Shown one piece after another: positions 7,803 to 60,814 of a stretch of 64,000 nucleotides of DNA. This DNA comes from Candidatus Ruthia magnifica str. Cm (Calyptogena magnifica) (lineage in GTDB: Bacteria; Pseudomonadota; Gammaproteobacteria; PS1; Pseudothioglobaceae): NCBI RefSeq assembly GCF_000015105.1, contig NC_008610.1, forward strand, positions 992,001 to 1,056,000, in the 5' to 3' direction. The notes beneath the pieces are model-generated. The model did not search any database. It was not told where the DNA came from and saw only the letters and a program-made list of their open reading frames with translations. Position 1 is the first letter of the stretch; the number at the start of each line of letters is the position of its first letter. The translations under genes were made by a program, and so were the position numbers.

Positions 7803-8392
7803 ATGATTAATTCACATGCCCATTTAGACTTTGACCATACAGTACAATCGTCGAAAATGCAGTATCAATTGTATCTAGCGTAGGTAAACAAAACTGAAAT
7901 ATTATTAGATTAACGAGGATTAGTACGATTAGCAAAATCTCATATTTTAATTATTGGTCTTGATGATGCTTGTACAGAAGCACTCTATAGAGCTGGTATT
8001 AACACATTAATCTTAGTTCATTTTGATATTTTATAAACGTACCTTAATCGTCAAATTATTGCACTTAATTCAACACTTAACCATGCCAAAGTAGACGTGC
8101 TTGCTGATAGATTATTTTATATCAAACCCTATCAAATCTGAGTTTTATTGCAGGTTGTATTGATACAGGTGGAAGACTTAATCTCACTCAAATTAAAATT
8201 TCGCGTATGGATAAAATCCAGAGCTGTGCCTTAGTTACGTGAACAAGCTTCAGCGCCAATTAAGGCATTTACACATACTGATGCCACTCTTCTGATAGAT
8301 TTAGAGCAGCAAATGGTGTAATTTCGTATATGCCTAATATTTTTAGGGTTGATGATGCAAGACATACCATTCAAACTCTATTAAAATCATAA
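7803..8392 (+). pseudogene. tcdA: Decayed tRNA threonylcarbamoyladenosine dehydratase
   Basis: TcdA (CsdL) cyclises the t6A base of tRNA. Translating the + strand with frame changes gives family pieces in order: an N-terminal MINSHAHLDFD, AKSHILIIGLDDACTEAL replacing the nucleotide-binding G-G-V-G-S loop, INTLILVHFDIL, then NRQIIALNSTLNHAKVDVLA, and CIDTGGRLNLTQIKI where the family has TGGAGGQIDPTQI. The end reads NGVISYMPNIFRVDDARHT and stops at 8392. At least three stops or frameshifts and a ruined nucleotide-binding loop show it is dead. The next gene downstream on the same strand is the redoxin gene. Confidence 0.75.
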
Positions 8393-8435
8393 TCTCTAAA
8401 AATAAAATCTTGTCTGTTTCAAGAAAGAGGAAAAA

Positions 8436-8999
8436 ATGGTTAGTACAAAAACCCCAATTTGTGATTTTAATACCCCGGCAATCGACTTTAGTTTAAAAGG
8501 TGTTGACGAAAAAATGCACACTTTAAAAAGTTGCAAAGGTAAAAACGGCCTATTGGTAATGTTTATTTGCAATCATTGCCCTTATGTTAAAGCAATTATT
8601 GATCGTATTATTTATGACACCAGAATATTCAAAGCAATAGGAATAAATTCTGTTGCAATTATGTCAACCAACCCAAATGAATATGAGGTTGACTCTTTTA
8701 AAAATATGCAAAAAATTGCCATGAGTATGAACTTCCCATTTCCGTACTTGATGGATAAAACTCAGCAGATTGCTAATGCCTATGGCGCTGTATGTACGCC
8801 TGATTTTTTTGGCTATAATGCTGATTTAAAATTGCAATATCGTGGTCGGTTTGACGCTTCACGTAAAGAATCTATAGCAGTAGGTATTAAACGTGATTTA
8901 TTTGATGCAATGAGTCAAATAGCCACAACTGGACAAGGCCCTAAAGAACAAATTCCCTCAATAGGTTGCTCAATCAAATGGCTGCATAGTGTTGATTAA
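8436..8999 (+). CDS. Thioredoxin-like (redoxin/AhpC-TSA) family protein
   Basis: The 187-residue protein has a thioredoxin-fold layout: LLVMFICNHCPYVKAIIDRI carries a Cys-X2-Cys motif (Cys-Asn-His-Cys) near residue 48, then SVAIMSTNPNEYEVDSF, YLMDKTQQIANAYGAVCTPD with a cis-proline type loop and third cysteine, and YRGRFDASR. It belongs to the widespread single-domain redoxin proteins annotated only as thioredoxin family. There is no signal peptide, so it is probably cytoplasmic. A plausible ribosome-binding site (AAGAGGAAAAA) lies just upstream. The substrate is unknown. It is intact between two decayed genes, suggesting selection keeps it. Confidence 0.75.
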   Translation: MVSTKTPICDFNTPAIDFSLKGVDEKMHTLKSCKGKNGLLVMFICNHCPYVKAIIDRIIYDTRIFKAIGINSVAIMSTNPNEYEVDSFKNMQKIAMSMNFPFPYLMDKTQQIANAYGAVCTPDFFGYNADLKLQYRGRFDASRKESIAVGIKRDLFDAMSQIATTGQGPKEQIPSIGCSIKWLHSVD

Positions 9000-12529: not shown

Positions 12530-13975
12530 AGACAAAGCATAATCGAAAGATTAATTGACGCTGTTATTGTCCTGCTTAAAGGTGCAGTATTCGTTATTAT
12601 TTCTAGATTATTCCCTGGATATGGGTTATATGCCGCAATATGTACTGTTCAGCTCATCATTGTATTTAGTTTTAGGGTCAAACCGTAGCCATTTCCATCA
12701 TAGTTTTTTCTGTCATTAGTCATCACGCCGAAACAGACAGTGCTGAATTTGCATCATTAGCACTCGCACTCGCTTTTCTTGCTGACGTTTATCAATTGGT
12801 ATTTAGCTTAACACGCTTAGGTGTAATGGTTAATTGTGTTTCACACACGTCATAATTGTCTTTACAACAAATGCGGCTATTTTATTTGCCAGTAGACAGT
12901 TAAAACACATTATAGGCATCAAAGGTTGAGACGCTAATATTGTATGATTATTATCTTAACGAATCTCATCACAACCGTTTTAACCAAAAAGTTCTTTTCA
13001 AAATTACCTAATTTACTATTAATGGTTAGTAAGTGCGCCTATCTTATATTTCAAAGACTTCATCCCACAAATTAAGTTTGGGGATGAAATGCCTACGCAT
13101 TTACCACCTTTCTTCATACTAAATTTTTCATTCTCTACGATTAAAATCCTCGCTCCTAAAATGTTTACTGTCGTCTTGCTCGATTTAATTGAGGCGTTTT
13201 CAATCAGTCGTACCATGACAATAAAATCCAATTAACATATTAACTCCTAGCCAAGGATTTATTGGTCAAGGTATGTCAAATATATTTGATAATTTTATGT
13301 CTAGCTATTTAGGCTCTAATTTATTTACGCATTCATGGATCAATTTTGAATCAGCTACAAGAATGTCCTTATTCACTATTTTTTCTGTTATTATATTAAT
13401 ATAATAGTCATTTATACTACTTATTGCATCACTCACCGCTTATTTACCCATTACAGCTATAGTAAATGTTATTCTTATGGTTGCCTATAATTTGATTAAT
13501 TTTTATCATATTCGTTAAACCTTAAACTTTAGGATGTAAGAGTCTGCCATCCTAATAACCAACTTTTTAGCAACCTTCTTTCTTGAGCTAGAATTTACTA
13601 TTTGCTTGGAAATTTTACTCTCATTAGTTTTATTTCTTAGCAGGGCTTACACACCTACCATTTCTAATTTATTCTTAGACAACGCCAGAGCCAACGACAA
13701 ATCGTAGAAAATGAACCTATTAATCATATTTTGATTGTTACTAGTGGTATTAATTTTATTGACTCTGACGAGCACAGAAATATTCATTTTAGAAAATAAT
13801 CACCTAATAAAAACAGTAGTGACTTATATTTTATCGGTTTAAGACTTCCATTTATGAGTTTACCACTAAGTCGTATTTCATTCAATAAACTGGTAGATAA
13901 ATACTTTTTTGATTCAAAATTACAAGTCATTAATCATCTTCATATAACCTTCAAGTGCTTATTTTTAATGAATAT
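12530..13975 (+). pseudogene. Decayed SulP-family anion transporter
   Basis: SulP proteins are inner-membrane sulfate or bicarbonate permeases ending in a STAS domain. Broken + frames give family pieces in order: IDAVIVLLKGAVFVII then [44 protein letters not shown]-like text, IYWSRYVKY/GQGMSNIFDNFMSSYLGSN, NFESATRMSLFTIFSVIIL, ASLTAYLPITAIVNVILMVA, LATFFLELEFTICLEILLSL, then STAS pieces NHILIVTSGINFIDSDE and DLYFIGLRLPFMSLP, ending near FDSKLQVINH. Stops and frameshifts occur throughout. The 93-codon frame at 13854-14135 covers only the tail and is not a gene. Substrate cannot be told. Confidence 0.75.
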
Positions 13976-54866: not shown

Positions 54867-57143
54867 TCAATTTTTTCGAAGCTGTTGGCTGGCTAACACC
54901 ATATTAGTTAATGCAAGATTTACCTCATCCCAATGTCTAGTTTTTAAGCCACAATCAGGATTGACCCATAGTCTTTTAATAGGGATGTACTTTGCCGCTT
55001 TTTGCATGAGTTCAACTATAGAATCAACCGAAGGAATATTAGGAGAATGAATGTCATAAACGCCTGGGCCTATTTCATTAGGATAATCAAACTCATCAAA
55101 TATATCTAATAATTCCATGTCCGAGCGAGAAGTCTCAATAGTGATAACATCAGCATCCATCTGCGCTATTGCCTCAATAATATCATTAAATTCTGAATAA
55201 CACATATGTGTGTGAATTTGAGTTTCATCACTTACACCATTAGCACTGACTCGATAAGCCCTAATTGCCCAATCAAGATAAGTTTGCCACTGAGATTTTC
55301 GCAGTGGCAAACCCTCTCTTAATGCCGCTTCATCAATCTGAATGATATTTATATTAGATTTTTCAAGGTCCAATACCTCATCTCTAATAGCCAAAGACAA
55401 CTGCAAACATGTTGTCGCTCTTGGCTGGTCATCACGCACAAATGACCAATTCAACATCGTAACAGGGCCTGTAATCATGCCTTTCATAGGCTTATTAGTG
55501 AGTGACTGAGCGTAGGTTATCCAATCTAGCGTCATGGGTTTTGGACGAAAAATATCACCAAAAATAATCGGTGGCTTGACACAACGCGAACCATAAGATT
55601 GCACCCAACCAAATTGACTAAATACATAGCCACTTAGTTGTTGTCCAAAATATTCCACCATGTCATTACGTTCAGGTTCACCATGCACCAAAACATCTAA
55701 ACCCAAGTGTTCTTGCACTTGCACACAATACCTAATTTCAGAACGCATCGTTTGCATATATTGCTCTGCTGATAATTTACCCAATTTATAATCGTGTCTG
55801 GCTTGTCTAATCTCTAGCGTTTGTGGAAACGAACCAATGGTCGTGGTTGGATATAAAGGTAAGTTAAATTTTTCACTTTGCAATTTTGTTCTACTCTTAT
55901 AATCAGATTGACGATTACCCAGTTCATCATTTACTTTAGCAATGCGTTCTTTAACTTTAGCGTTATGCACAAGTGGTGAATATTTTTTAGAATTAATGGC
56001 ATCAATATTATTTGCTATTTCTTTAGTTACACTTGCTTGACCTTGATTAAGTGCTTGTGCTAATAAGCTTAGTTCTTCTAATTTTTGCACAGCAAACCCA
56101 AGCCATGATTTAATATCGTCATTCAGTTCTTGCTCGCTGTCTAAATCCACAGGCACGTGCAATAATGAGCAAGACGGGGCTAGCCATAATCTATTTTGTA
56201 ATTGCTGGTGAATAGGTTCTAGCCACAACAAGGTTGTACTTAAATCTGTTTTCCAAATATTACGACCATTTACCACACCCAATGATAAAATTTTATCATC
56301 TGATAGACTATCAATCAGCAATTGAACCTCATCTTTTGCATTAATTGCATCAATATGTAACCCGTCAATAGGTAAGCCACAAGCAAAGCTTAAATTATCC
56401 TGTAAAGTACCAAAATAACTAACAAGTAACAATTTAATCGGACTATTTGCCAATATATCATAAGCCTTCCTAAACGCCACTTGCCAATCTGTTTCTAATT
56501 CTGTGACCAAAATAGGTTCATCAACCTGTATCCACTCTATGCCTAACTTTACCAATTCATCAAATAATTGCGTATACACTTTAACCAATGAGTCTAATAA
56601 ATCTAGTTTATTGATTTTATCTTTAGACTTGCCTAACCATAAGTAAGTGACTGGGCCAATAACAACAGGCTTAACCTTTACACCTTGCGCTTGCGCTTGT
56701 CTAATTTGTGCAATCAGACGTTGTGCTTGGAGTGCAAAGTTTGTCTCTTGACTAAATTCTGGTACAATATAGTGATAATTGGTGTCAAACCATTTGGTCA
56801 TCTCACCCGCTTGAATACAAGTACGCTCAGACTCATTAATAAAGGCGCGCCCACGCGCTACTCGAAAATAGTTATCTAGCTCATTATCTGATAAATTTTC
56901 AGCACGTTTTGGGATATTACCTAATAAAAAACTCATATCCAAAACATGATCATAAAAAGAAAAATCACCTACTGGCACCCAATCTAATTTATTTTGATTT
57001 TGCCAGTATTGCTTGCATAATGTACTAGCAGTTTGCAATAACTCATCTTGAGAGATTGCATTTGACCAATATTTTTCTAATGCAAATTTTAACTCCCGAT
57101 GTCTACCAATACGTGGAAAACCCAAATTGTGTATTGTAACCAT
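54867..57143 (-). CDS. metE: Cobalamin-independent methionine synthase
   Basis: MetE transfers a methyl group from methyltetrahydrofolate to homocysteine using zinc. The 758-residue double barrel starts [19 protein letters not shown], has [29 protein letters not shown], the zinc ligands in [11 protein letters not shown] and [12 protein letters not shown], and the DNA-like gene length of other MetE proteins. The divergent metR lies 98 bp away; the MetR box at 57226 is in that interval. Because it works without B12 it fits a cell that does not depend on cobalamin. Confidence 0.96.
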
Positions 57144-57225
57144 AATTGAGATTCCTACTGAATTAAAGTCAAAGATTATATAAGGGCTACTATATAAAGT
57201 AAAATGATTATTTTTAACTTAACAA

Positions 57226-57238
57226 TGAATTATATTCA
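57226..57238. promoter_or_regulatory. MetR-type binding site TGAA-N5-TTCA
   Basis: TGAATTATATTCA fits the MetR consensus TGAANNWNNTTCA exactly, including the central A/T. It ends 3 bp before the metR ATG, so binding there would block metR expression (autorepression), and it sits 83 bp from the metE ATG where it could also activate metE. A second good copy near metE is not seen. Confidence 0.6.
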
Positions 57239-57241
57239 TAT

Positions 57242-58135
57242 ATGATAACGCTTAAACATTTAAAAATCATCCAAGCATTACATGAAAATAGCACTTTAAC
57301 GCGCGCTGCAAATGTGTTATATTTGAGTCAATCTGCCTTATCCCACCAAATTCGTTACTTAGAGGAAAAACTGGGTGTTACACTCTGGGAACGAAAAGGT
57401 AGAAATTTACTCCTCACAAAAGCAGGTGAATTATTATTACAAACTGCACAACAATTGTTGCCAATTTTAGAACAAACTGAGAAAACTTTGAAAGCCTATG
57501 CACAAGGTCACCAAGGTATTTTACGTATAGGCGTTGAATATTATCCTTGCTATAAGTGGCTAACAAAGGTCATTGGTGTGTTTTTGCAAAAAATGCCTAA
57601 TGTTGAAGTAGAAATCATCAACAAATTTCAATTTTCTGGGCACGAAGGGTTGCTCAATTACCATATTGATATTCTAATTACACCTGATATAGAGAAAAAA
57701 GCAAACATTCACATTGAAACACTCACCCAATATAATTTGGTACTTTTAGTTGCTGATAAACACCCACTAGCACATAAAAAAGTAATTATACCAAAAGACT
57801 TAGCTCATAAAACTTTACTTACTTTTCCTGTGCCACTAGAACGACTCGATATTTTAACAAAATTTTTAAACCCAGCACATACCAAGCTCAAATATATTAA
57901 AAAAATTGAATCCATTGAGATCATACTACAAATGACAACGCTCGGACGTGGAGTTTGTATATTCCCAGAATGGCTGGCAGATGAATTTATTAAAAAAATG
58001 CCTGTTAAAAAAATTCGTATAAGCGCCAACGGGCTTAGTCAAAAACTCTTTGCAATTTTGCGTAAACAAGACAAAGAAATTAATTATATTCAACGCTTTG
58101 TCAAAATTAGTAAGAAGGTAGTCAATAAGACCTAA
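57242..58135 (+). CDS. metR: LysR-type regulator MetR
   Basis: MetR activates methionine genes with homocysteine as coinducer. The 297-residue protein has an N-terminal winged helix (LKHLKIIQALHENSTLTRAA, LSQSALSHQIRYLEEKLGVTLWERKGRNLLLT) and a LysR substrate-binding domain with GILRIGVEYYPCYKW. The position divergent from metE, with a MetR box between them, supports MetR rather than another LysR protein. No Shine-Dalgarno is obvious before the ATG because the box occupies that space. Confidence 0.9.
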   Translation: MITLKHLKIIQALHENSTLTRAANVLYLSQSALSHQIRYLEEKLGVTLWERKGRNLLLTKAGELLLQTAQQLLPILEQTEKTLKAYAQGHQGILRIGVEYYPCYKWLTKVIGVFLQKMPNVEVEIINKFQFSGHEGLLNYHIDILITPDIEKKANIHIETLTQYNLVLLVADKHPLAHKKVIIPKDLAHKTLLTFPVPLERLDILTKFLNPAHTKLKYIKKIESIEIILQMTTLGRGVCIFPEWLADEFIKKMPVKKIRISANGLSQKLFAILRKQDKEINYIQRFVKISKKVVNKT

Positions 58136-58237
58136 AAAATTACTTAATCAGTAAAAAACTTGTTTGGTGATGATTAATAATGTTGTGATTATGGTATAAT
58201 TTTTTCTATTATTTTTTATGCTTAAAAAATCAAAATC

Positions 58238-60181
58238 ATGTTAAATAAACAAAATATTTTAGCTATTATTTTTGCTATTTTTGCCGTGTGGCTTTCAACA
58301 ATTGCACCAACTACTCCCATCTCTTGGATGTTGGGCATTCTAGTATTAACAATTTATTTGTTTACTTTTGAAGTGTTAGAAATTGATGAAGCCTCCATTA
58401 CTATTATGATTATTTTAGGATTAAGCTCTATACCATGGATTCATACTTTAATGGGTCTAGAAGAAGGTTTGGTTGATAACCAGAGACTGTTTGATGGATT
58501 TTCTTCTAATGCAGTTATGTCAATTATTGCGGTAATGATTATTGGTGCAGGCTTAGATAAGACAGGATTAATGGGCAAGGTTGCTACTTTTATTCTTAAA
58601 GTAGGGGGTAGTTCTGAACCAAGAGTGATTCCAATCATCTCTTCTACCGTTGGATTTATCTCATCTTTTATGCAAAATGTAGGTGCAGCTGCACTATTTA
58701 TCCCTGTTGTGAGTCGTATTTCATCACGCTCTGGTATTCCAATATCACGGCTATTAATGCCGATGGGATTTACAGCAATTTTAGGTGGTACAATAACCAT
58801 GGTGGGTTCTAGCCCTTTAATCTTGCTAAATGATCTAATTCTAACCACTAATCAGGGATTAGAAGTTGGACAACAAATGGATACCTGGGGATTGTTCTCT
58901 GTAACCCCAATAGGTATTGCATTAGTTATAACAGGTATTGTGTATTTTGTTATTGTTGGAAGGTTTGTTTTACCTGCAGCTAAAAAAAACCAATCTGAAT
59001 CTGTATCAGCCATTGAACACTTTCATCAAGTTTACAACATAGATTATGATTTATTTGAGGTTAATGTCCCTAAAGACTCTAACTTAATTGGCATGATGCT
59101 TGATGATATTGAAACGGCTACTAAAATCAGAATCATCGCTATACAAACCACTGAGGGTAGAACATTTATTGGTCACCACTCAGTTGAGCGTAGCACTACA
59201 ATTAAAGCACAAATGACTTTAGGTGTATTGACAACAAAAGAACATCTGGATGCTTTTGTTCAAGGCTTTCATCTTGAACTATCAGATACCATTAAAAAAT
59301 TCTCTAACTTATTATCTACACAAGAGTGTGGGACAGCAGAAATTGTCATTCCACCTAATTCTTCTCTCATTAATCAAAGTGCTAGAGATATATGGTTACG
59401 CAAAACTTATGGCATTGCCATGGTGGCATTACATCGTGGTGGAGAAACCATGCAAGAAGGCGAAGGCATTCGTGATATACCCTTTCAATCAGGCGATACA
59501 CTAATTGTCTACACACGTTGGGTTGACTTAGACAGGTTGCAATCAAACACCGATTTTATTGTTATCACCTCTGAATATCCAAGACAAGAAGAGTATCGCC
59601 CTGAGAAAATTAAATGGGCAAGTATTTTCTTTGCCGTTGCGCTTTTTTTAGTATTATTTACTGATATTAAACTTTCTATCGCGCTCATGACTGGCGCCTT
59701 AGGTATGATTTTATCTGGCGTTCTTAAAATAGAAGAGGCCTATCGTGCTGTTTCTTGGAAAACAGTATTCTTATTAGCAAGTCTTATTCCACTAGGCATG
59801 GCAGTATCAAAAACTGGTACTGCTTTATGGATTGCACAAGAAACAGTTAAAGTGGTTGGAGATATGGCACCTTGGGTCATACTAACCTCAATTGTCATAC
59901 TTGCAACTTTTTTTACTTTGGTGATGTCCAATGTAGGCGCGACTATTCTCTTAGTGCCGATTGCTGTTAATATTGCCATTCAAGTAGGAGAAAATCCTGC
60001 AGTTTATGCACTAGCAGTAGCTATTGCAACTTCAAACTCATTTTTAATTCCCACCCATCAAGTAAATGCTTTAATTATGGGCCCTGGTGGCTATAAAGTA
60101 GCAGATTTTATCAAAGCTGGAAGTCTTATGACAGTACTATTTATCATCGTTATGATGTCAATGATGAGTATTATTTTTTAA
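58238..60181 (+). CDS. SLC13-type transporter with central RCK_C domains
   Basis: SLC13/DASS proteins move anions such as dicarboxylates, sulfate or arsenite with sodium. The 647-residue protein has an N-terminal membrane half (about residues 5-240, with TITMVGSSPLILLNDL), a soluble middle with two TrkA_C/RCK_C-like domains (about 260-440: VPKDSNLIGMMLDDIETATK and IVIPPNSSLINQSARDIWLR), and a second membrane half with FTLVMSNVGATILLVPIAVN. This layout is common in marine bacteria. Substrate is not settled; the gene 28 bp downstream is a carbonic anhydrase, which makes bicarbonate a candidate. Confidence 0.8.
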   Translation: MLNKQNILAIIFAIFAVWLSTIAPTTPISWMLGILVLTIYLFTFEVLEIDEASITIMIILGLSSIPWIHTLMGLEEGLVDNQRLFDGFSSNAVMSIIAVMIIGAGLDKTGLMGKVATFILKVGGSSEPRVIPIISSTVGFISSFMQNVGAAALFIPVVSRISSRSGIPISRLLMPMGFTAILGGTITMVGSSPLILLNDLILTTNQGLEVGQQMDTWGLFSVTPIGIALVITGIVYFVIVGRFVLPAAKKNQSESVSAIEHFHQVYNIDYDLFEVNVPKDSNLIGMMLDDIETATKIRIIAIQTTEGRTFIGHHSVERSTTIKAQMTLGVLTTKEHLDAFVQGFHLELSDTIKKFSNLLSTQECGTAEIVIPPNSSLINQSARDIWLRKTYGIAMVALHRGGETMQEGEGIRDIPFQSGDTLIVYTRWVDLDRLQSNTDFIVITSEYPRQEEYRPEKIKWASIFFAVALFLVLFTDIKLSIALMTGALGMILSGVLKIEEAYRAVSWKTVFLLASLIPLGMAVSKTGTALWIAQETVKVVGDMAPWVILTSIVILATFFTLVMSNVGATILLVPIAVNIAIQVGENPAVYALAVAIATSNSFLIPTHQVNALIMGPGGYKVADFIKAGSLMTVLFIIVMMSMMSIIF

Positions 60182-60208
60182 AATAACCTTTGACTCCGTT
60201 TTTACAAC

Positions 60209-60814
60209 ATGAAACATTTAAATCCAACACAAGCAAAAAAAAGACTGATTGATGGCAATCAACGCTTTGTTAATGGCACTACATTGCATTATAAATTTCA
60301 TCCCCATAGATATATAAAAAATATACAAGATCAAGCGCCTTTTGCTATTGTAGTAGGTTGTTCTGATTCGAGAGTGCCAATTGAGACTATTTTTGATCAG
60401 AGTTTTGGCGATTTATTTATTATTCGCATTGCAGGGAATATAGTAGCTCCATCACAAATGGGTAGTGTTGAGTTTGCAATCTCAAAATTTAAAGCCTCCT
60501 TGATTATGGTATTAGGGCATTCTAACTGTGGTGCTATTGGCGCTACTATTGATGAGTGCATTAATAAAACATATTTATCAGGCAGTCTTCATTCTATTAC
60601 TGATAGGATCAAGCCATCAATCCTTCCCTTAATTAGCCTAAATTTGCCAAATCATAAATTAATGAATAAGGCTATTAAGGTTAATACTATTAATTCTGTC
60701 AACCAATTACAAAATCAATCACTAATCATTAAAGAGGCTATAGAAAATAATAAATTAGAGATTATAGGCGCTAACTACTCTTTAAAATTAGGTACAGTTC
60801 AGTTTCTGACTTAA
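60209..60814 (+). CDS. Beta-class carbonic anhydrase
   Basis: The enzyme interconverts CO2 and bicarbonate. All zinc ligands and the Asp-Arg pair are present: Cys51, Asp53 and Arg55 in GCSDSRVP, and His104 and Cys107 in GHSNCGAIGA. The 201-residue length is normal, and there is no signal peptide, so it is cytoplasmic. It starts 27 bp after the SLC13-type transporter gene on the same strand, suggesting one operon. It could supply bicarbonate to carboxylases or CO2 to Rubisco in an autotroph. Confidence 0.93.
   Translation: MKHLNPTQAKKRLIDGNQRFVNGTTLHYKFHPHRYIKNIQDQAPFAIVVGCSDSRVPIETIFDQSFGDLFIIRIAGNIVAPSQMGSVEFAISKFKASLIMVLGHSNCGAIGATIDECINKTYLSGSLHSITDRIKPSILPLISLNLPNHKLMNKAIKVNTINSVNQLQNQSLIIKEAIENNKLEIIGANYSLKLGTVQFLT

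Follow-up and report, generated by a model that had tools for sequence, protein, structure and literature searches.

An SLC13-fold transporter paired with a β-carbonic anhydrase: a putative inorganic-carbon supply unit of clam and mussel symbionts

The 64,000-nucleotide stretch of the Candidatus Ruthia magnifica str. Cm (Calyptogena magnifica) genome analysed here (NC_008610.1, positions 992,001 to 1,056,000; hereafter the window) encodes an anion transporter of the SLC13/CitMHS fold with central RCK_C domains (TR), followed on the same strand by a β-carbonic anhydrase (CA) (Table 1). It is considered moderately probable that the two genes form an inorganic-carbon supply unit in which TR imports bicarbonate. 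Because its partners, recurrently linked to it across related genomes, are CA, SulP/BicA, phosphoribulokinase (PRK), CbbQ and carboxysome genes, TR is most likely, as judged from gene context, the bicarbonate transporter hitherto missing from a clade reported to have none, and it is a strong candidate for a dissolved inorganic carbon (DIC) transporter of a new kind. The Ruthia/Vesicomyosocius/Thioglobus/Bathymodiolus clade has been reported to have a β-CA and to be without DIC transporter genes, the reason given being the CO2-rich host cell; the DIC systems considered were SbtA, BicA/SulP, CmpABCD, Chr and vectorial-CA complexes (Scott et al. 2024, PMC10880623). No prior proposal tying SLC13, CitMHS or DASS proteins to carbonic anhydrase or carboxysomes was found in the literature searched, outside which lay the Scott et al. 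2020 survey of carboxysome-adjacent candidate transporters, where a prior mention is possible.

Conservation of the transporter–carbonic anhydrase pair

Both open reading frames (ORFs) and their domains were confirmed as given in the first-pass annotation of the window, that is, a 647-residue SLC13-like transporter with RCK_C domains and, 27 bp further on the same strand, an intact β-CA; no terminator-like site was found in the 27-bp gap. CA keeps the metal-binding and catalytic residues of the β class (C51-x-D53-x-R55 and H104-x-x-C107), comparison of its sequence with those of solved structures places it closest to carbonic anhydrases (2a5v/1ym3), and it is the sole Pro_CA gene in the 1,160,782-bp single-contig genome.

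TR occurs at 92-100% identity in all 12 same-genus genomes searched (this one included) and in several bathymodioline symbionts. CA lies directly downstream of it in 12/12 surveyed loci at this level of identity, from both vesicomyid (clam) and bathymodioline (mussel) symbionts, which subsist on sulfide and CO2, and the pair sits between truA and rimM wherever the contig shows both. The possibility, left open in the first-pass annotation, that the adjacency is peculiar to this genome is dispelled by these loci and by its recurrence in other arrangements; it is far above chance. The pair has been retained in genomes of ~1.0-1.2 Mb although SulP is gone from one of them (G035) and present only as fragments in others. 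TR is under strong purifying selection, with ratios of nonsynonymous to synonymous divergence (dN/dS) of 0.04-0.09 across the symbiont clade, a constraint at least matching that on the flanking truA and rimM; the corresponding values for CA are 0.09-0.19.

The history of the locus within the symbionts appears to involve gene exchange. In the comparison with a Bathymodiolus symbiont (L034), dS is 0.5-0.6 for metR, TR and CA and >2 for the flanking truA and rimM (window 54867-60814), and within one genus of mussel symbionts some members have the metE-metR-TR-CA block and others a 77% version. Because of the low dS of these genes and this either-version distribution, the block looks to have passed horizontally between the symbionts of clams and those of mussels.

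Table 1. Coordinates of TR, CA and associated features in the window.
Feature	Position	Strand	Description and evidence
TR, SLC13/CitMHS-fold anion transporter with central RCK_C domains	58238..60181	+	647 aa, intact ATG ORF
TR, first RCK/TrkA_C-like domain, residues 258-346	59009..59275	+	TrkA match 258-346; KhtT c-di-AMP domain match
TR, second RCK_C (TrkA_C) domain, residues 367-436	59336..59545	+	PF02080; MthK/KtrA RCK_C matches
TR Q146-N147-V148, counterpart of the first DASS Ser-Asn-Thr (SNT) substrate motif	58673..58681	+	VcINDY SNT alignment
TR S564-N565-V566, counterpart of the second SNT motif	59927..59935	+	VcINDY alignment
TR P605-T-H-Q-V-N-A611, subfamily signature, second unwound-helix region	60050..60070	+	Homolog conservation
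TR-CA intergenic gap	60182..60208		27 bp, without terminator-like site
CA, β-carbonic anhydrase	60209..60814	+	201 aa, intact; Pro_CA PF00484, 124 bits (cut-off 25.7)
LysR-type regulator, MetR by best match, upstream of TR	57242..58135	+	In the metE-metR-TR-CA block; low dS like TR and CA
Decayed SulP (sulfate permease family) pseudogene	12673..13557	+	Three PF00916 fragments with stops, G000:C1:1004673-1005557; tblastn 13240-13698

Partner genes of the transporter in related genomes

Orthologs of TR at 74-79% identity, all from the taxonomic family of this bacterium, occupy the same locus, rimM-X-TR-truA, in which the gene X varies. It is a β-CA of another subclass (27% identical, Can-like) placed head to head with TR in L043, L046, L144 and L145, a same-subclass CA upstream that overlaps the TR start by 14 bp in L147, SulP in L140, CbbQ-SulP in L138 and L139, and a divergent BicA-like SulP (543 bits) in L142; L143, from a mussel-symbiont relative, also has a same-subclass CA upstream, with a Mutator-family transposase and two ORFs before TR. 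The locus L138, on the same contig as the metagenome-assembled genome BH20 (L049), reads cbbL-cbbS-csoS2-csoSCA-csoS4-...-cbbO-cbbQ-sulP-TR on one strand, the main genes being confirmed by Pfam and cbbO being called on its size, its position and a weak match to VWA. An α-carboxysome operon in L138 thus ends with TR. In L146, cbbL is four genes from TR, which adjoins a LysR gene with CbbR as its best match.

Carbon-related partners are also found beyond this family. Homologs at 58-66% identity usually have the Na+/H+ antiporter NhaD downstream (645 bits to the curated model in L069), and near many of them lies a BicA-like SulP (617 bits, L069) or PRK (461 bits, L098); same-strand TR-PRK pairs are seen at 50-55% identity (L218, L219 and L225), and in L235, at 43% identity, TR is followed after a 6-bp gap by a β-CA. 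A linkage count over 167 distinct loci compared near slots (±2 genes from TR, n=618) with far slots (±5-8 genes, n=687): CA was found in 18/618 near and 0/687 far slots, and the corresponding near and far numbers were 25 and 1 for SulP, 16 and 1 for PRK, and 40 and 0 for NhaD, the commonest neighbour, of which the present genome has an unlinked copy. On a quick FastTree phylogeny of 133 TRs, where gains and losses are counted together, CA adjacency required 5 changes (at least 3 of them forced by well-supported branches), PRK adjacency 9 and SulP adjacency 16.

These patterns bear on the notion that TR and CA are neighbours with no functional link, their order having been inherited or having travelled with metE-metR in a horizontally exchanged block. 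In the symbiont clade itself the pairing counts as a single historical event, and the block looks to have been exchanged as a unit; taken alone this would suit such a notion. It is nevertheless very improbable, and already disfavoured: there are at least three independent CA pairings, involving two CA subclasses and differing orientations, and TR has SulP, BicA-like, PRK and carboxysome partners besides.

Domain organisation and substrate site

The Pfam matches of TR comprise CitMHS (245.6 bits), two TrkA_C stretches and a C-terminal Na_sulph_symp, and its score against the DASS model (NCBIfam, TIGR00785) is 107.5 bits, below the curated cut-off of 198.6, so that TR is filed only in the wider CitMHS/ion-transporter superfamily. 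Pfam and NCBIfam scans of TR gave no homology to SulP/BicA, SbtA, Chr or DAC. Its AlphaFold2 model (mean pLDDT, the predicted local distance difference test, 75.5; pTM, the predicted template modelling score, 0.61) shows the DASS fold with two RCK_C domains, and structural matches include NaS1 (Z 38.4 over 422 residues) and VcINDY (Z 32.6; Foldseek E 1e-10). TR thus has in common with the DASS/SLC13 carriers VcINDY, NaS1, NaDC3 and NaCT the fold, the second Ser-Asn motif and residues at the Na+-site positions, but differs from them in a QNV instead of an SNT motif, the PTHQVNA signature, the central double RCK_C insert and the sub-cut-off score. Tight clustering with characterised dicarboxylate or sulfate carriers, which the first-pass annotation had named as part of what would speak against carbon uptake, was not seen, the structural matches lying at 12-18% identity.

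The SNT motifs of DASS carriers coordinate substrate carboxylates and Na+ (PMC7553777). TR lacks the two-SNT hallmark of DASS proteins, the first motif being QNV and the second SNV. Q146-N147-V148 is invariant in 132/132 homologs of at least 58% identity (the third position is V or I below that), as are S564 and N565 in the same 132, and PTHQVNA is kept in all homologs down to 45% identity, a level to which the two motifs, too, hardly vary. The Asn residues of both motifs are kept together with S142 and T560, i.e. residues at VcINDY sodium-site positions, while the exchanger residues Arg159 and His392 of LaINDY would correspond to A150 and T560 in TR, as placed through the VcINDY alignment and the text of the paper, not by a direct LaINDY alignment. 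Together, the motif and site residues favour coupling to Na+ and a substrate that does not resemble a dicarboxylate.

The same residues argue against a role already in print. The vesicomyid symbionts were described as having a 'single citrate transporter' in which two SLC13 domains are combined with one TrkA-C domain (PMC2642828, 2008). This protein is TR, the only other CitMHS protein in the genome being NhaD, and the published role, concerned with intermediates of the tricarboxylic acid (TCA) cycle, was taken from the family name, whereas the gene context of TR points to inorganic carbon. The CitMHS and DASS matches are in keeping with transport of citrate or C4-dicarboxylates between host and symbiont, yet this is an unlikely function: the first SNT of VcINDY, which holds one carboxylate, is an invariant Gln-Asn-Val in TR, the DASS score falls short of the cut-off, TR stands beside carboxysome and Calvin-cycle genes in free-living autotrophs, and the neighbours examined included no recognisable gene for the TCA cycle or for dicarboxylate utilisation.

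Distribution and the case for sulfate

Among 369 gammaproteobacterial genomes sampled, core TR (about 58% identity or more) was present in 61, of which 57 have Rubisco (38% among the rest) and 57 have DsrA. With one genome taken per family, the only step by which the kinship of genomes related by descent was handled, TR was found in 25/49 families with both Rubisco and Dsr, 1/26 with Rubisco and no Dsr, 1/6 with Dsr and no Rubisco, and 0/77 with neither. Because of these counts, TR in Gammaproteobacteria is assigned to autotrophs oxidising sulfur in the cytoplasm.

Several observations weigh against bicarbonate import as the role of TR. The presence of core TR follows that of Dsr more closely than that of Rubisco (among families with Rubisco, 25/49 with Dsr against 1/26 without, p = 2e-5), and Rubisco genomes without Dsr, including those of Sox-only sulfur oxidisers, are mostly without TR; Sox-only sulfur oxidisers produce sulfate outside the cytoplasm. 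Outside the Gammaproteobacteria, the Dsr link persists in the absence of Rubisco, with 11 TR genomes (57-63% identity) of which 0/11 have Rubisco and 9/11 have DsrA. For some of these, CO2 fixation through the reverse TCA cycle is possible, and weaker homologs (53-56%) occur in complete genomes with neither Rubisco nor DsrA. It is chiefly the Dsr-bearing, Rubisco-less homologs that speak against a role in bicarbonate transport alone and for a connection of some kind with sulfate. The best single structural match of TR is the human sodium/sulfate carrier NaS1, and the SulP neighbours of TR are of the sulfate type as well as BicA-like. As to linkage, CA adjacency is limited to the family of this bacterium and L235: coordinate inspection of 78 TR genomes found none outside the family, L235 having been found separately. 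Rubisco was likewise not found close to TR outside the family, where L067 has a weak match six genes away, and Proteobacteria outside the Gammaproteobacteria had no carbon partner near TR, the neighbours noted being one NhaD (two genes away) and one LysR. Within the family, TR has no CA or SulP next to it in two genomes (L148, and L141, which is at a contig edge). TrmB is also frequent near TR (32/618), and part of the PRK-TR linkage may be gene order inherited together with it. Finally, bicarbonate imported into a cytoplasm that contains CA and no carboxysome would leak as CO2.

Because TR tracks reverse Dsr and has Dsr-linked homologs outside the class without Rubisco, sulfate export or sulfate/bicarbonate exchange is kept in play. 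TR could be an exporter, or a sulfate-out/bicarbonate-in exchanger, for the cytoplasmic sulfate arising from reverse Dsr-Apr-Sat, a possible though not a likely function. In the exchange variant, one sulfate would leave for two bicarbonates and CA would turn HCO3- and H+ into CO2, so that product and acid are removed and carbon is supplied. An RCK_C-gated, SLC13-fold sulfate/bicarbonate exchanger working with CA in this manner, removing the product, neutralising acid and feeding Rubisco in symbionts and carboxysome-bearing relatives, is a still more tentative proposal and rather unlikely. Sulfate transporters of mussel symbionts have been described as unidentified (PMC6976577), and DASS proteins include exchangers (PMC7553777), both of which agree with a sulfate function. 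Pure sulfate export, in turn, leaves the CA, carboxysome, CbbQ and PRK partners unexplained. Moreover, the LaINDY exchanger residues appear to have no counterpart at the positions inferred for TR, and the Na+-site residues are kept; Na+ symport, which is normally inward, is therefore favoured. Transport of another inorganic anion of Dsr-type autotrophs, e.g. sulfite, thiosulfate or nitrate, would fit the Dsr association and the altered substrate motif, but it too leaves the inorganic-carbon partners unexplained and is highly improbable.

Proposed role in inorganic-carbon supply

Under the favoured interpretation, a bicarbonate-importing unit, TR would act as an elevator-type anion transporter with the SLC13/DASS fold and a regulatory RCK_C module, bringing bicarbonate into the symbiont. 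Clam symbionts have form II Rubisco and no carboxysomes (PMC2642828), and the cytoplasmic β-CA would equilibrate the imported HCO3- with CO2 for this carboxysome-free enzyme while also consuming protons from sulfur oxidation. Na+ probably drives the uptake, because the VcINDY sodium-site residues are retained, positive surrogates of the exchanger type appear to be missing from the inferred positions and NhaD is the commonest neighbour; a variant with outgoing sulfate as the counter-ion may be envisaged. Bicarbonate as the substrate, the inward direction and the Na+ coupling are the parts of this model that we infer, from context and from residues.

The unit resembles the SulP/BicA, SbtA, Chr and DAC/DAB sets of sulfur-oxidising autotrophs, in which a transporter is likewise encoded with CA, carboxysome or Calvin-cycle genes, and TR shares an operon-like run with SulP, itself a known DIC family. 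In contrast to these transporters, TR belongs to none of their families, and its putative bicarbonate transport is proposed here from gene context. NhaD, a relative within CitMHS, shares the broad CitMHS Pfam family with TR and is its most frequent downstream neighbour, but TR forms a separate family without a match to NhaD models. If TR carries bicarbonate, the transporter gap of the clade would close, a new family would be added to the known means of CO2 supply, and accounts of host-symbiont exchange built on the 'citrate transporter' would have to be revised. If TR also moves sulfate, it would help explain sulfate disposal by Dsr-type sulfur oxidisers, a poorly documented step.

The first-pass annotation had proposed the two genes as an inorganic-carbon uptake unit and TR as a candidate replacement for a dead SulP gene. 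The link to carbon supply is well supported by the conserved pairing, the independent CA pairings and the carboxysome-operon TR, and the replacement is not supported. The SulP gene is indeed dead, consisting of three stop-bearing fragments, and no intact SulP was found anywhere in this genome. A late replacement of SulP by TR was rejected, however, because relatives carry both genes together: G043 has intact SulP with TR-CA, and L138 has SulP and TR in one gene run.

Neighbouring genes and further observations

In other genomes of the same genus, SulP is at varied stages of decay, with none left in one genome and two intact copies in G043. The LysR-type gene upstream of TR was considered as CbbR and rejected, since it is MetR and adjoins metE; in other lineages, the LysR gene that is divergent from TR has similarity both to YeiE-type regulators and to 5y2v, a regulator of the Rubisco operon, and is therefore left unassigned. 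The interval between CA and TR in L143 (5460-7715) contains, besides the Mutator-family transposase, a 315-aa ORF without identification. In the carboxysome operon of L138, two tandem 79-aa proteins are encoded between a ParA-like gene and cbbO (8033-8547), one of them with a weak match to the histone-like HC2 (39.6 bits, below cut-off). An ORF of ~190 aa lies directly upstream of TR on the same strand in L068 (5309-5869), L052, L056 and L063, with a sigma-54 two-component system alongside; it gave no Pfam match (L068 scanned). In L231, TR has a further, divergent homolog (195 bits) immediately upstream, encoded on the other strand.
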